Below, in pieces: positions 16,081 to 26,413 of a DNA stretch of 32,211 nucleotides (position 1 is the first letter of the stretch; every line of letters begins with the position of its first letter). The position numbers and the translations under genes were made by a program. A model generated the notes under the pieces. The model did not search any database. It was not told the origin of the DNA and saw nothing but the letters and a program-made list of their open reading frames with translations. This DNA comes from Streptococcus sp. DD13. GTDB lineage: Bacteria > Bacillota > Bacilli > Lactobacillales > Streptococcaceae. The DNA lies in NCBI RefSeq assembly GCF_001578875.1, contig NZ_KQ969506.1, positions 561,838 to 594,048 on the forward strand. The letters run 5' to 3'.

Positions 16081-17355
16081 CTAGTCTTCCTTCAAGGCAT
16101 CAAACTTCGCTTTCATGGTTGGATTTTTGCGGGTCAATTTTTTAACGGAAACATCATCCAATTTGTTATTGGCAAGGCGGAGTTGATTTTCTGATGTAGT
16201 TAGGAATTTCTTGACTTCTTCCATGCGTTTGATAGCCTTGTCGATCTCATCGATGGCTTTACCAAAATTTGTCGAAGCAGACTTGTAGTTCTTGGCAAAA
16301 GCCTGTTTAAAGGCATCCAAATCTTCCTCAAAATGAGTGATATCAATATTCTGCTCCCGAACCAAGGCCAGTTCTTGCTTATAATGTAGCGAGTTAAGCG
16401 CTGCATTCCGTAGAAGACCAATCAACTGAATAAAGAATTGAGGACGAACCACATACATCTTTTCATAATCGTGGCTGACGTCCACAATCCCTGTGTTAAA
16501 GTAGTCGTTATCTGCTTCCAACATGGTTACCAAAACTGCGTACTCACAATTTTTCTCTCTACGATCCTTATCCAATTCCTTGTAAAAATCAGCATTCTTG
16601 TGCTTCTTCTCTGTTCCATCCGCCTCATTTTTCATCTCAAACATGATGGAAATGAATTCCAGCCCATTTTCATCAAAATCACGGAAGATGAAGTCTCCTT
16701 TAGAACCACGCGCAGAGACCTTGTTGTCCTTCTCAAAGTAGGCATTTGGAAAGGCAAAACTACGAACCTTGTTAAACTCGCTCTCTGCATACTGTTCTAG
16801 ACTTTCACCAATAGCTTTTGTAGATTGTTGTGCCTTGAAATTCTTGTAAAACTCAACTTGCTCACTAGCTGCCTTGAGTTGAGCTTCATAATTCTGCTTA
16901 ACAGAAGCCAAAGACAACTCACTTTCTTTTTCTTGCAAGAGGAGCTGATTTTTGACCAGATCCCGTTCTTTTTCTAGGTCAGAAAGGCTCTTTTGCAGTT
17001 GATTTTCATGCTCTAGACGAAGAGTAGCCAGTTGGTTTTCCAAGGCCTGTACTTCCTTGTCCTTAGCTAATAAAGCCTGCTGGCTGGTCTGTTCCACTTC
17101 TTTTTGGACCAATGCTTTTTCGGTCTCAAAATGTTGGATTTGACTTTGGAGTTGGGCAATTTCTTGCTCTTTTTTAGCTAGTTTTGTTTGCTGATCATTT
17201 AGTGCCTTTTGCTCTACTAGAGCGATTTCCTGACGAAGGCGACTATGAAGTTCTTGGTCAAATTCAGCTGTTCTCACTTGCGACAAGAGTTCCGCATACT
17301 GGCTTTCATTTACCGTAAAAACTTCCCCACAGTTGGGGCATTTGATTTCGTTCAT
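16081..17355 (-). CDS. DUF2130 family coiled-coil protein
   Basis: This 424-residue protein of unknown function matches the DUF2130 family. It opens with a zinc-knuckle half-site CPNCGEVF (Cys6, Cys9). A long Gln/Glu/Lys-rich coiled coil (about 25-205) follows. A conserved C-terminal domain contains GSKGDFIFRDF, EMKNEADGTEKKHKNADF and LDKDRREKNCEYAVLV. That conserved D..EMK..K arrangement resembles a PD-(D/E)XK nuclease fold (Asp in GDFIF, Glu-x-Lys in EMK), which is an inference only. It has its own extended -10 promoter, divergent from the HAD gene, and is followed by the GNAT gene. Confidence 0.85.
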   Translation of the reverse strand: MNEIKCPNCGEVFTVNESQYAELLSQVRTAEFDQELHSRLRQEIALVEQKALNDQQTKLAKKEQEIAQLQSQIQHFETEKALVQKEVEQTSQQALLAKDKEVQALENQLATLRLEHENQLQKSLSDLEKERDLVKNQLLLQEKESELSLASVKQNYEAQLKAASEQVEFYKNFKAQQSTKAIGESLEQYAESEFNKVRSFAFPNAYFEKDNKVSARGSKGDFIFRDFDENGLEFISIMFEMKNEADGTEKKHKNADFYKELDKDRREKNCEYAVLVTMLEADNDYFNTGIVDVSHDYEKMYVVRPQFFIQLIGLLRNAALNSLHYKQELALVREQNIDITHFEEDLDAFKQAFAKNYKSASTNFGKAIDEIDKAIKRMEEVKKFLTTSENQLRLANNKLDDVSVKKLTRKNPTMKAKFDALKED

Positions 17356-21065: not shown

Positions 21066-22214
21066 TTATGAAACTGCTTCTATCGCTGCCACCACTTCAG
21101 CCACTAAAGCGGCATCTGTCAGACCAGTTACTTCTTCTACAACCGTTTTTAAGGGTTTTTCCTTGAGTAAAGACTGCAATTCTACCGATTGAGGGTCACT
21201 CGCATCCTCATAATGAAAGACGTAAGCAACCGTTTGTAAAAGATTAGAATAATCTAAACCACGCTCTTTCAATTCCCGAATTGGACGAATAAAGCGCTCA
21301 TCATATCCCAACTTCCGGATCGGAGTACGCGCCACACGACTGACTTCATCGACAATGAAGGGATTTTCAAAACGACTGATGATGACTTTATGATACTCCA
21401 CCAAAGCCTGTTCTTCAAAGCCCCATTTAGCGATCAAAAGGCTTCGAATCTCTGCTAAAACCGCTTCTACCTTTTCTTTGACGGTTGAATTTTGCAGGGC
21501 TTGCAAAATCGTCTCAGCTCCGAAAAAAGCTCCTGTATAGGCAGACGTTGCATGCCCTGAGTTGACAGAAAATAGTTTTCGCTCGATAAAAGGCTCTAAA
21601 TCCGCTTCATAATGAACCTCTTTCAATTTCAAGGATGGGTTCTTCATTCGACTCGTTTCAACGACCCATTCTTTAAACGGCTCTACCACTACAAAGAGAG
21701 GATCCTCATGGCTTTGGGCAGGAACGATTCGATCCACGGCTGCATTGGGAAAGCCGACATATGCTTCAACATAGGCTAATCCTTCAGAAGAGAGGTATTT
21801 TTCCACTTCTTTTTTTAGGAACTGAGAGCCACCAATCATATTTTCACAAGCTAAAACATCGATCGCTTGATGATTTCCAGATTGGCGACGCGCTTCAATA
21901 CCTTTGGCAATCAATTCTGCGATATAGGGAAGAATATTCGGACCAATCGCTGTCGTAATAATATCTGCTTCAGCAATAGCCGCTACTACTTCTTCTGGTT
22001 CTTTAGCATTGTTAAATCCGCGAACACCTGATACAGCAATCTGACGTTTCCCTTCTTCAGCGATTTCAATCTCATAACTATGACGCTCATTTAAAGCATC
22101 GATGATCTTTTCATTCACATCTACAAAGGCAATTTCAAAACCATTTTCAAAGAGGACTTCTCCAATGAAACCTCGACCGATATTTCCAGCACCAAAATGT
22201 ACAGCTTTTCTCAT
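21066..22214 (-). CDS. mtlD: Mannitol-1-phosphate 5-dehydrogenase
   Basis: This 382-residue enzyme oxidises mannitol-1-phosphate to fructose-6-phosphate with NAD+, feeding glycolysis. The N-terminal Rossmann motif is [14 protein letters not shown]. The catalytic region has Lys in [18 protein letters not shown]. Family length is normal. It is last in the mtlA-mtlR-mtlF-mtlD operon, 10 bp after mtlF. Confidence 0.96.
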
Positions 22215-22224
22215 GATTTTCTCC

Positions 22225-22662
22225 TTATGCTACACCATTTAGCAAGTCCACTACTTGATCGACCGATTGCGCATCAGCTAGCTTAACCACATTGTCCACA
22301 TCCGCACAAAAGATCGAAATCTTTTGAATGATTTCTAAATGTTCATCACCTAGACCTGCAATGCCAAAGAGGACTGTAGCAACCTTTGGTTCTTCTTCTG
22401 TCCCGAAGTTCACCCCTGCCGGAACTTGCACGATTGTGATTCCAGAGGAAAGCACTTCTTTTTTAGCTGCATCCGTACCATGTGGGATCGCAATGAAATT
22501 CCCCATGTAAACGGATAATTCATTGTTCCGTTCTACCATTGCATCAATATAAGCCGGATTAACGTGTCCTGCTTCTACAAGTTGAGCGCCACAGTAGCGG
22601 ATTGCTTCTTCTTTCGTTGAAAAAGCTTGATTTAATTTGACAAGTTCTTTTTGAAATTCCAT
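22225..22662 (-). CDS. mtlF: Mannitol PTS EIIA component
   Basis: This 145-residue cytoplasmic EIIA protein relays phosphate from HPr to the EIIB domain of MtlA. The active-site His61 is in [13 protein letters not shown]. The neighbouring [13 protein letters not shown] and [13 protein letters not shown] segments are typical. The start lies 1 nt after the mtlR stop, with GGAG inside the mtlR end, so translation is coupled. Confidence 0.95.
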
Positions 22663-22663
22663 C

Positions 22664-24616
22664 TTAATTCTCCAATTTCTTGATTTTTTCGTTAAAGATT
22701 GTATTTAATAATTGATATAGGATTTCTTGATTTCCCGCCCGGTAGATTTCAGTATAAAGTTTGCTTTCCAAGATAGATTGGCTGATGGCTGTCATCAATT
22801 CCCGCACTTCTTCTTCTTCTTCATTTTTGGTCAACATCACCAGAATCCGCTGGACTTTTTCTAAAGAATGATTCATCGACCGTGCCTCAATGACCTGGTT
22901 CAATTCGACAATTAGAAAATGACTCGTTTCAACCTTGCTAGACTGGCTATGAAGGAGGGCGAGATTGGTATCTGGAATTGCTAGAGGACTCACCTCGAAA
23001 CGATCAATCAGCTTTTGACTCAGATAATCCGTATCCGTCACAAAGGGCAATTGTCGAACTAAAGCCGCAACAGTCTCTTCAAAGGTGGATGGATTTTTGA
23101 GTGATATCAGTTGAAAATGCTGCAAAATCAGACTCGAAGCCGCTAAATAGCGTTGCAAATCAAAGGTCTCCTTTAAGAGAGGATCTTCTCGCCTTTGAAC
23201 CGTTCGATTGATTTGAACATCCTGTAATTTCTCCTGCAACTCAATCATCTCATTGGTCGATGGAAAGGTGGAAATTAGCTCCAGCTGATAGCCAGAAAGA
23301 GGCTTTGTAGCCAGACAATAATCATAACTATCAATGTCTTCCTGATCCAACTGATTACTCGATACCACACGGACTTCTTCCACAAAGGGGGCGACACTTT
23401 CAATCTTTGAAACAAGGACACTAGTCATTAGTGGACGTTCATCTGTCACTAATAACAAGCGAATCGGATAGATATCCGGACTCCTACGTAGACTCGAGGC
23501 AAAATGAAGGGAAATCATCGCATACTCGTACTCATTTTGAAGATAGACGGGAAAGATATCTTTCACCAGTTGGCTCACCAGCCGATGTAAATAGGCATTT
23601 TTCTGTGCAGCCAGATAGGCGACATTGTCCGTTGAAAAGACAGGAAATAAAATCGGTACTGCTAAAGCAAGTCGCAAGTGATGAAAAAGAAAGGTAAATA
23701 AGATCTGATCTCGCATAAAATCAATCTTAGTAAAGCGCGAAACGCTGTCTATCAGTTGACGAACCCGGTAATAAAATTCACTGTCAAAGCGCTCCTGAAA
23801 TAAGGGGATTTCTTGTCTCTTTAGAACCATCTCATCCATCACTTCCGCCATGTAAACAATCTCAGATAGATTGTAGAACTGACGACTTTTTTCAGATAAG
23901 CTGGTAAACAAGATTTGAGACCAGTCTAAGGCTCGTTTAGAGACATTTGACGCTTGTCGGATTTCTAATGAATTATCCGCTAAAGAAAGTAATATGGTCA
24001 TGAACTGCTGGATCTTGGGATCCATGTCTTGGAGCAATCCTTCTCCCGCTTTCAAGCATTCCCTACAAATGGAGACATGCTCCTCTTCTAAAACAGAGAA
24101 CCCCTCCAACTGACCGCTGGAAAACTGACTGATCGAAATGGCATTGGTCAACAAAATGGCTAATAACCGTCTTTTTAAGCCCGGATCCCCCTGAACCAAA
24201 TAGCCTTTTGTCCGACTCATGGTTAGACCAAATTCATTCAAACGATCTTCGATCATCGCGATATCTTGAATAATGGTCACATTGGAGACCTGGAGGGTAT
24301 CCTGCAAAACCTCATTGGTCACGGGTTCCGTCCGACTTAATAAAAGATAAGAAAGCTGAATCAACCTCCGGCTGGAACCTTCTGAACGATCCAAATTTTC
24401 CTTTTCTAATAGCGACAAATCTCCCTTAAGATAATACCGTCTCCCTTCCTTGACTAAAGAAATTCCTTCATTTTCTAATGTAGCGGTCAAGTCGGAAAGT
24501 GTCCGATAGACTGTTCTAGTGGAGACTTGAAGGATATTCATCATCTCCTTTAAGGAAAGCTTTCCCATATTTAGGAAAGCTTTAATCAATTGTTCTTCAC
24601 GATTTGTTAATAGCAT
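22664..24616 (-). CDS. mtlR: Mannitol operon transcriptional activator MtlR
   Basis: This 650-residue PRD-type activator has an N-terminal DeoR/HTH_11 wing-helix (about 1-60) and a second HTH-like region (about 85-145). Two PTS regulation domains follow (about 190-290 and 300-380), then an EIIB-Gat-like segment (about 385-450) and an EIIA-like C-terminus (about 490-640). PRD II retains its histidines (HH at 312-313, H371). PRD I has YMAEVM where a His is usual. The EIIB-like P-loop has [13 protein letters not shown] with no Cys at the expected place. Regulation by phosphorylation may therefore rest on PRD II and EIIA. It sits between mtlA and mtlF. Confidence 0.92.
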
Positions 24617-24652: not shown

Positions 24653-26413
24653 TTATTTGTGCATCCGTGCGACCATTTTGTCGTATTCTGGAGTAGTAAC
24701 TAGGCTATCCACCACTAATAGTTGAGCATGGGGAGCTGCTGCTTGAACAGCCGCTTGGTTTGCGATCGTGGTCACAACCATGATATTTTTTGAATTGTGC
24801 TCATGTAAATCCGTGTTTGGAAGGCTGATGACTGGAATTTTAATCTCATTGCGACGGAAGATTGCTCGTAGTGTTTCTTGTCCCATCGTAGCGGATCCTT
24901 GTGCTTGCTCATAAGCAAAGACAACCTCATCAATAAAGTTTAAATCTAACGTTGCTTCAGCCGTTGCCACTTCTTCTACAGCCACTGTCGAAACAGACTC
25001 GTTTTTCAACTGTGATACAATCTCATCATATTTTGGTGACGTCAAGAAATTATCTACAGCCACATGAATAGCCCGTGGAGTCCGTTGAGCTGCCCGATCA
25101 GCCAGTTCTTCTTGAGTGACAATCAACGTATAATCCGTGTCCTCAAGTGTTGAGATAGCTTGGTTGCTAACAGGGATATCCAGTCCCGCCTTTTTCACTT
25201 TGTCTCGTAGAAGAGAAGCCCCCATAGCTGAACTTCCCATCCCAGCGTCACAAGCAAAGATAATTCGTTTTACAGATTCTTGTGAGATCCCTTGTTCGAC
25301 AGAAGCTTGTGGAAGAGCTTGACCTTTAGACTGTGCCTTCGCTGCAGACGTTGCAGCTTGAGCAGCTTCTAAGCTATCTTCTTCGGACTTGTCAAAACGA
25401 AGGATAAGGGCAGCGACCGCAAAGGAAACTGCTGCAGCAATCAGAACACCTGCCAATACAACCAAGTGTGGCATCAAGCCTTTTGGTGCCATCCCCATAA
25501 TGGCAATAATGGATCCTGGTGAAGCTGGAGCTGTCAGACCGGCTCCCAATAGCTGGAAGGTAAAGGTTCCTGATACACCACCTGCAATAACCGCAAGGAA
25601 CATTGCCGGTTTCATCATCACATATGGGAAGTAAATTTCATGAATCCCTCCAAAGAAGTGGATGATCATGGCACCCCATGAAGAGGATTTCGCTGTCCCA
25701 CGACCAAAGAAGGCATATGCCAACAAGATCCCAAGACCTGGACCAGGGTTTGCTTCCAGCAAGAAGAGGATTGATTTTCCAAGTTCGGTAGCTTGTTGCG
25801 TTCCAATTGGTGTCAGGATACCATGGTTCAACGCATTGTTCAAGAACAAGACCTTTGCAGGTTCAATAATGATATTGGTCAATGGCAAGAGGGAGATACT
25901 CATCAGGAAGTCAACCCCCTGGCTCACCCACTCCGTAAGGGAGGATACAACCGGACCAACCGCATAGAATGAGAAGATCATTAAGCCAAAGGCCAAGAAA
26001 CCAGCAGAAAAGTTGTTGACCAACATTTCAAAACCAGGACGGATCTTTGGTTGAACAGCTTGATCAAATTTTTTCATCAACCAGGCTGTCAACGGACCCA
26101 TAATCATCGCACCGATAATCATGGTGACATTCGAACCTTGGATAGCTCCAAATGCAGCCGCTGCTGCAACGACGCCTCCGCGGTGACCATAGATATTAAA
26201 TCCACCTGTAAACCCAATCAAGAGCGGAATGACGTAGGTCAACATCGGACCAACCATGGTACTCAACTCTTTATTTGGCAAATACCCACTATCAATAAAT
26301 AAAGCAGCCAAGACACCCCAAGCAATCAAAGCAGGGATATTGGGCATCACCATGTTAGACAGTGAGGTTCCTAGTTTTTGAAGTCTCACTCGAAATGAAG
26401 TATTGTTTTGCAT
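24653..26413 (-). CDS. mtlA: Mannitol PTS permease EIICB with a second, degenerate EIIB-like domain
   Basis: This 586-residue membrane protein imports and phosphorylates mannitol. The EIIC domain (about 1-340) carries the substrate motif GGIHEIYFPYVMM (255-267). An Ala/Gln-rich linker (345-380) leads to EIIB (381-470) with the phosphocysteine P-loop FACDAGMGSSAMG (Cys388). Residues about 490-586 repeat the EIIB pattern: FAYEQAQGSATMG aligns with the P-loop, Tyr501 replaces the Cys, and VVDSLVTTPEYDKMV mirrors AVDNFLTSPKYDEIV. The length (about 590) matches streptococcal MtlA, so the extra domain is probably lineage-wide rather than a local accident. It is the first gene of the operon. Confidence 0.95.
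   Translation of the reverse strand: MQNNTSFRVRLQKLGTSLSNMVMPNIPALIAWGVLAALFIDSGYLPNKELSTMVGPMLTYVIPLLIGFTGGFNIYGHRGGVVAAAAAFGAIQGSNVTMIIGAMIMGPLTAWLMKKFDQAVQPKIRPGFEMLVNNFSAGFLAFGLMIFSFYAVGPVVSSLTEWVSQGVDFLMSISLLPLTNIIIEPAKVLFLNNALNHGILTPIGTQQATELGKSILFLLEANPGPGLGILLAYAFFGRGTAKSSSWGAMIIHFFGGIHEIYFPYVMMKPAMFLAVIAGGVSGTFTFQLLGAGLTAPASPGSIIAIMGMAPKGLMPHLVVLAGVLIAAAVSFAVAALILRFDKSEEDSLEAAQAATSAAKAQSKGQALPQASVEQGISQESVKRIIFACDAGMGSSAMGASLLRDKVKKAGLDIPVSNQAISTLEDTDYTLIVTQEELADRAAQRTPRAIHVAVDNFLTSPKYDEIVSQLKNESVSTVAVEEVATAEATLDLNFIDEVVFAYEQAQGSATMGQETLRAIFRRNEIKIPVISLPNTDLHEHNSKNIMVVTTIANQAAVQAAAPHAQLLVVDSLVTTPEYDKMVARMHK

Follow-up and report, generated by a model that had tools for sequence, protein, structure and literature searches.

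A degenerate second EIIB domain in mannitol permeases of Lactobacillales and its association with loss of the MtlR EIIB-Gat cysteine

Results and Discussion

The mannitol permease MtlA of Streptococcus sp. DD13 carries, behind its active EIIB domain, a second domain (EIIB2) that, as judged by sequence comparison and fold prediction, is a derivative of a mannitol-type EIIB and not a working EIIB. Loss of the phospho-cysteine of the regulator MtlR is tied to the presence of this degenerate copy, an association that appears to be real and is moderately supported, with four to seven independent losses.

Domain organization of MtlA

The DNA analyzed (the window) is a 32,211-nucleotide stretch of contig NZ_KQ969506.1 in which mtlA, mtlR, mtlF and mtlD are consecutive, all on the minus strand. 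The gene mtlA (24653..26413) codes for a 586-amino acid mannitol permease with the organization EIIC-EIIB1-EIIB2 (TIGR00851 mtlA, E 1.6e-147; NF011663, E 1.4e-187). It consists of the EIIC membrane domain (residues 11-349, 25367..26383, the TIGR00851 match range), the active copy EIIB1 (residues 381-470, 25004..25273; PF02302, E 2.3e-13; 1VKR, E 5.9e-19), a linker predicted to be flexible in the EIIB1-EIIB2 model (residues 471-489, 24947..25003), and the degenerate EIIB2, assigned by a profile match to 1VKR and by fold (residues 490-586, 24656..24946). The initial annotation had described a normal EIIB with Cys388 and a second copy with Tyr501 at the corresponding site, and the codons (25250-25252 and 24911-24913, respectively) and the length of the open reading frame agree; residues 506-511 of EIIB2 read GSATMG (24881-24898). 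Adjoining mtlA is mtlR (22664..24616), which codes for a 650-amino acid regulator (Pfam HTH_11, Mga and PTS_EIIA_2), followed by mtlF (22225..22662), coding for a free EIIA-Mtl of 145 amino acids (PF00359, E 1.2e-32), and mtlD (21066..22214), coding for mannitol-1-phosphate 5-dehydrogenase (PF01232, E 3.1e-71; PF08125, E 1.2e-47). MtlF is thus the product of a separate gene, and no PF00359 match was found in MtlA at E values up to 1.

Elsewhere in the window, also on the minus strand, are genes for an 831-amino acid protein with three streptococcal histidine triad stretches (167-2662) and for a 424-amino acid DUF2130 protein (16081-17355).

Origin of EIIB2

An internal duplication in which one copy lost catalysis, as first proposed from the sequence pattern, is well supported by the alignment of the two halves, the profile comparison, the predicted fold and the survey of related genomes. 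Direct alignment of EIIB1 and EIIB2 covered 92 residues with 25% identity (E 3e-9 in a single comparison). Searched as a single sequence, the tail (residues 490-586) showed no PTS_IIB match in Pfam, a weak match to the mannitol IICBA model of NCBIfam (E 1.9e-4) and an E value of 0.86 against 1VKR. Its best Pfam match, AIG1, was below the cut-off of that model and was taken as chance. When 27 tails were scanned singly, ten gave a PTS_IIB match with an E value of 1 or lower (3.6e-4 for the strongest), and a profile of 27 tails (A1), picked for diversity from those collected at that point, retrieved the E. coli EIIB-Mtl structure 1VKR with an E value of 4.2e-13.

Structure prediction likewise returned an EIIB fold. 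The AlphaFold2 model of the tail, made with 39 relatives, had a pLDDT of 81 and a pTM of 0.72, and its best Foldseek match was 1VRV, a mannitol EIIB (E 5e-4, TMt 0.78). In the VIA comparison the top rank (Z 13.6) went to the EIIB portion of 9a2w, a model of E. coli MtlA, with 1VKR and 1VRV at Z 12.9 (2.1 Å over 91 residues); the next family was represented by 3czc, an ascorbate-type-like IIB (Z 9.9). Neither of the two outcomes named in the initial annotation as refuting the duplication, a predicted structure without the EIIB fold and the lack of a significant EIIB profile match, was obtained. A joint model of EIIB1 and EIIB2 showed two confident domains joined by a disordered linker, with uncertain relative placement (pLDDT 86, pTM 0.48); pLDDT was below 50 at model residues 107-121, corresponding to MtlA residues 473-487.

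Conservation and selection

The phospho-cysteine located in the loop after strand 1 of an EIIB is absent from EIIB2: this position is Tyr501 in the window protein, and in the 96 aligned degenerate copies it is H (47), Y (41), R (6) or F (2) and never C, while in EIIB1 it is C in 96 of 96. Other residues that are 99-100% conserved in EIIB1 together with Cys388, namely Asp389, Asn417, Gln434, Glu436 and Arg440, are likewise poorly conserved in EIIB2. At the matching EIIB2 positions Asp is found in 39%, Asn in 17% and Glu in 32% of the copies, Gln and Arg are outside the commonest residues at the positions of Gln434 and Arg440, and the commonest residue at these five positions reaches at most 50%. 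On the other hand, EIIB2 has kept a set of residues at 90-99%, including Gly506 (98%), Met510 (99%), Leu571 (93%), Tyr577 (94%) and Thr509; the EIIB1 counterparts of Thr509 and Leu571 are Ala and Phe, respectively. From 159 pairs, which were not independent and of which 132 were usable, the median dN/dS of EIIB2 was 0.073, compared with 0.022 in EIIB1 and 0.049 in EIIC, values that indicate that EIIB2 is under purifying selection. The conservation of residues and the low dN/dS, in the face of the poor conservation of the residues invariant in EIIB1, make EIIB2 look like a functional domain devoid of EIIB chemistry.

Distribution of second EIIB domains

MtlA was searched in three overlapping sets of genomes: the family of the window (245 genomes, 72 with any match), the order (395 genomes, 172 with a match) and the class (398 genomes, 228 with a match). 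In 65 of the 72 genomes of the family the match extended at least to residue 581, unbroken in 55 and split in 10. Of the other seven matches, one ended at residue 422, close to the end of a contig, two ended at residues 480 and 495 (IICBA), and four were weak and limited to the EIIC region. The closest named relative of the window MtlA, among the best 80 of 575, is from Streptococcus suis (76% over the EIIB region).

The 259 loci analyzed, which include some genomes twice, comprised 52 returned directly by these searches, 127 stretches (27 + 60 + 40) from part of the matching genomes, selected for genus, family and length of the ORF irrespective of the state of MtlR, and 80 named loci, the best 80 of 575. 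From them 267 MtlA-type ORFs were parsed, a few of them partial, and the following counts describe this sample and not natural frequencies. A single EIIB was found in 80 ORFs, a single EIIB with a fused EIIA in 22, two cysteine-bearing EIIBs in 17, and an active EIIB1 followed by a degenerate EIIB2 in 145 (site H 71, Y 62, R 8, F 3, S 1; locus L093, whose tail was missed by the HMM, was counted under Y by reading its sequence). With one ORF of reversed order (L106) the degenerate copy is present in 146 of the 267; two fragments had no EIIB.

The degenerate second EIIB is, on these data, widespread among Lactobacillales and not a local accident. Its named carriers among the matches listed are Streptococcus, Pseudolactococcus (records titled Lactococcus), Periweissella, Enterococcus, Trichococcus, Lacticaseibacillus, Lactiplantibacillus, Companilactobacillus, Loigolactobacillus, Liquorilactobacillus, Ligilactobacillus and Lactobacillus, as well as one contig of Sedimentibacter. 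Two cysteine-bearing copies are found in L217, L221, L223-L227, L230, L232, L235, L083, L092, L099 and L140-L143; their named carriers, among the matches listed, are Tetragenococcus, Priestia, Bacillus, Shouchella, Oceanobacillus, Marinococcus, Pseudalkalibacillus and Alkalihalobacillus. More than one origin seems likely for the second EIIBs, since several lineages of Bacillales and others have both cysteines and since in L106 the dead copy comes first. In a tree of EIIBs only (91 columns, with many long branches), which cannot date the degenerate copies, several of the Cys-Cys pairs group with themselves; the two-cysteine MtlAs apparently stem from several separate duplications.

Several loci depart from the organization seen in the window. 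In L106 (5471-7198, plus strand; genome G466) a degenerate EIIB with Tyr precedes the active one, and mtlF and mtlD are beside mtlA. In L080, L082, L090, L091 and Enterococcus faecalis L275 (1174-7755) mtlR lies between the genes for two EIICB permeases in one cluster, and both permeases have a degenerate EIIB2. Loci L052 and L053, from genus g2 of the family of the window, code for a 685-amino acid MtlA that has a fused EIIA but lacks EIIB2; in the stretch examined around mtlA, MtlR was not found. A contig of Sedimentibacter sp. SX930 (L211) has a Trichococcus-like mtl locus that shares its EIIB2 and MtlR site motifs with L202, and represents either transfer or contamination.

Loss of the MtlR cysteine

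According to the accessible text of the reports cited, EIIA-Mtl is the phospho-donor of the EIIB-Gat cysteine of MtlR, and this phosphorylation keeps MtlR inactive (PMC11537053; see also PMC3217849). The cysteine is Cys419 in B. subtilis MtlR, which the mannitol permease tethers to the membrane through the EII domains of MtlR, as stated in the available part of PMC8560693 and, for the tethering, in the cited title of Bouraoui 2013. In the window MtlR the cysteine is replaced by Thr391 (23444-23446), as determined by alignment of the site and reading of the codon.

Where both genes were readable, 86 of the 121 MtlRs accompanying a degenerate EIIB2 were without the cysteine. None of the others lacked it, whether MtlA had two cysteine-bearing EIIBs (16 loci), a single EIIB (71 loci) or a fused EIIA (16 loci). 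The set comprised 258 loci, 34 of them without a readable MtlR site; L130, which holds short MtlA pieces, was left out. After removal of near-copies the loss was seen in 65 of 96 degenerate-EIIB2 loci versus 0 of 95 others, the cysteine being retained in the remaining 31 degenerate loci. Among the 86 MtlRs that lost the cysteine, the PRD2 histidines His349 and His407 (L112 numbering) are kept in 83/86 and 78/86 of those covering the site, and the EIIA-like His605 is kept in all 53 that cover it. The loss is therefore specific to the cysteine site, as the other phospho-histidines are mostly retained; whether the EIIA-like histidine is phosphorylated is a point on which the accessible portions of PMC3217849 and PMC11537053 disagree.

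On the EIIC tree seven irreversible losses were placed, every one in clades with a degenerate EIIB2, which make up 23.5% of the branch length at risk; on the MtlR tree there were five, all on degenerate branches (28.4% of the branch length at risk). Unordered parsimony gave five and four changes on the EIIC and MtlR trees, respectively. Rough estimates from the branch share were 4e-5 (seven losses), 7e-4 (five) and 3e-3 (four) for the EIIC tree, and 1.8e-3 (five) and 6.5e-3 (four) for the MtlR tree, all of which assume quick trees, a midpoint root, a parsimony-placed EIIB2 state and irreversible loss of the cysteine. A sign test on independent pairs had four to five pairs, too few to reach significance.

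At twenty of the degenerate loci the MtlR site could not be read. A genome-wide search for MtlR covered the genomes of 13 of them (those of L063, L074, L079, L189, L204, L216 and L220 being left out) together with G354 and G468, and a strong MtlR was present in 13 of these 15 genomes. Twelve of the 13 have a degenerate EIIB2, with the MtlR site being Ser in ten and Cys in two, and G468, which has a single EIIB, has Cys. In G498 the search found only a weak MtlR fragment, and in G466 no MtlR at E 1e-10. These MtlRs are outside the main counts, except for G354 and G468, whose loci had already been counted.

Relation to known systems

The E. coli fructose permease FruA (IIB'-IIB-IIC) has at its N-terminal side an additional domain, IIB', that lacks the cysteine nucleophile. 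MtlA resembles it in having a second IIB without a nucleophile in the same permease, but FruA belongs to the fructose family and its extra domain is N-terminal whereas EIIB2 is C-terminal. Because of this difference in position, and because the nearest solved relative of EIIB2 in the profile and fold comparisons is the mannitol EIIB (1VKR), EIIB2 was not assigned to the IIB' group. With the mannitol EIICBA proteins (E. coli MtlA; NF011663) the window protein shares homologous EIIC and EIIB1 domains, but EIIB2 takes the position of their EIIA. B. subtilis likewise combines a mannitol permease, in its case with a single EIIB, an EIIA and a PRD regulator MtlR with EIIB-Gat and EIIA-like domains; its MtlR, however, has Cys419 and that of the window lacks the cysteine.

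The accessible text of PMC6872149 and PMC2405797 indicates that the second IIB of FruA acts in protein-protein interaction and not in phosphoryl transfer, and, in the latter report, that both IIB domains of E. coli FruA are required for full activity. The part of PMC6872149 available presents accessory IIBs without phosphate transfer as a peculiarity of the fructose Enzyme II, and pneumococcal mtlA was called EIIBC, with no second EIIB mentioned in the available part of PMC3302838. No description of a second EIIB in MtlA was found in the literature searched, as far as its accessible text goes. In the present sample an accessory-IIB design of this kind is seen, at the C-terminal end, in mannitol permeases of many Gram-positive genera. 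The two-cysteine MtlAs may represent intermediate states that are still living, and the combination of EIIB2 with loss of one MtlR phospho-site would constitute a natural experiment on communication between transporter and regulator.

Possible function of EIIB2

The initial annotation had suggested that the second copy could serve in docking or regulation, with MtlR or EIIA as possible partners. A docking function is plausible, agreeing with both the loss of the MtlR cysteine and the covariation with MtlF described below, although the two candidate partners are not separated by these results. Our preferred explanation, which we advance tentatively and by analogy with FruA IIB', is that residues 490-586 are a phosphorylation-dead EIIB that serves as a docking platform on the transporter, probably for MtlF. 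EIIB2 would keep the free EIIA beside the active EIIB1, and the presence of MtlF at the permease could make the EIIA-Mtl-dependent cysteine checkpoint of MtlR redundant. The cysteine may then have been lost repeatedly, and only in the degenerate-EIIB2 background, because the checkpoint was redundant once MtlF was held. Since the MtlR cysteine receives its phosphate from MtlF, MtlF docking would account for both the covariation and the cysteine loss.

Covariation of evolutionary distances, a weak measure, was determined with 44 loci having every part, after regression of the distances on those of EIIC and MtlD. EIIB2 distances correlated with those of MtlF (0.54) and EIIB1 (0.46) and much less with the EIIA (0.15), HTH-PRD (0.09) and EIIB (-0.01) parts of MtlR. 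The EIIB1-MtlF value, 0.51, was nearly equal to that of EIIB2-MtlF. With a looser treatment (unequal sets, EIIC control only) all parts were positive, from 0.72 for MtlF to 0.23 for MtlR EIIB. In the stricter analysis MtlD, for which no partnership is expected, gave 0.60 before it was controlled for. The covariation leans to the phosphorelay side (MtlF and EIIB1), the cysteine loss towards MtlR. The dead EIIB that persists beside MtlF in G466, where MtlR was not found at E 1e-10, also counts for MtlF docking. A further point in its favor is that EIIB2 was found together with a fused EIIA in 0 of 22 IICBA ORFs, from loci partly chosen by length. Against MtlF docking count the 31 of 96 degenerate loci that keep the MtlR cysteine. 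In addition, many genomes have MtlF next to an MtlA with one EIIB, which means that docking is no general requirement, and the motif TQ-EL--RA conserved in EIIB1 is gone from EIIB2, which would speak against binding of MtlF if those residues touch EIIA.

The main rival to MtlF docking has MtlR docked permanently on EIIB2 and is, in our view, rather unlikely. An unphosphorylatable copy would hold MtlR at all times and render its cysteine dispensable; control would then fall to the PRD2 histidines, perhaps together with the EIIA-like one. B. subtilis MtlR is activated when the MtlA EIIB tethers it at the membrane through its EII-like domains. Permanent docking would fit the reported membrane tethering of MtlR by the permease (PMC8560693, available text; cited title of Bouraoui 2013), the adjacency of mtlR and mtlA in the window, and a cysteine loss that is selective for that site and occurs only with a degenerate EIIB2. 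It is at odds with the lack of covariation between EIIB2 and the MtlR EIIB once EIIC and MtlD are removed, with the retention of the dead domain in G466 without a detectable MtlR, and with the same 31 loci that keep the cysteine. Somewhat more doubtful still is the idea that MtlA EIIB2 and MtlR EIIB-Gat form a matched pair of dead EIIBs bound permanently, fixed tethering having replaced the phosphorelay checkpoint several times independently.

A structural spacer or a domain stabilizing the permease dimer, with no partner of its own, is improbable: the covariation of EIIB2 with EIIB1 would be accommodated, but the predicted disorder of the linker and the uncertain relative placement of the EIIBs (pTM 0.48) do not favor it, and the disappearance of the MtlR cysteine would not follow from it. 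We give little credence to EIIB2 still being phosphorylated, on His or Tyr in place of Cys; 88 of the 96 copies have one of these residues and the glycine-serine loop is partly kept, but the residue varies among H, Y, R, F and S in relatives and the other residues invariant in EIIB1 are not conserved. Least credible is that EIIB2 is a functionless relic undergoing decay, as the median dN/dS and the occurrence of EIIB2 across many genera speak against this reading even though amino acid change in EIIB2 is about three to four times faster than in EIIB1.

Annotation of EIIB2 in public records

Public annotation can hide EIIB2. The window MtlA, without an EIIA domain, passes the cut-off of the IICBA model NF011663 (624.6 versus 589 bits). 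A Lactiplantibacillus plantarum plasmid protein (L276, 5977-7803) is annotated as IICBA and actually has the organization EIIC-EIIB-EIIB2 without EIIA, which is encoded by a separate gene two places downstream.
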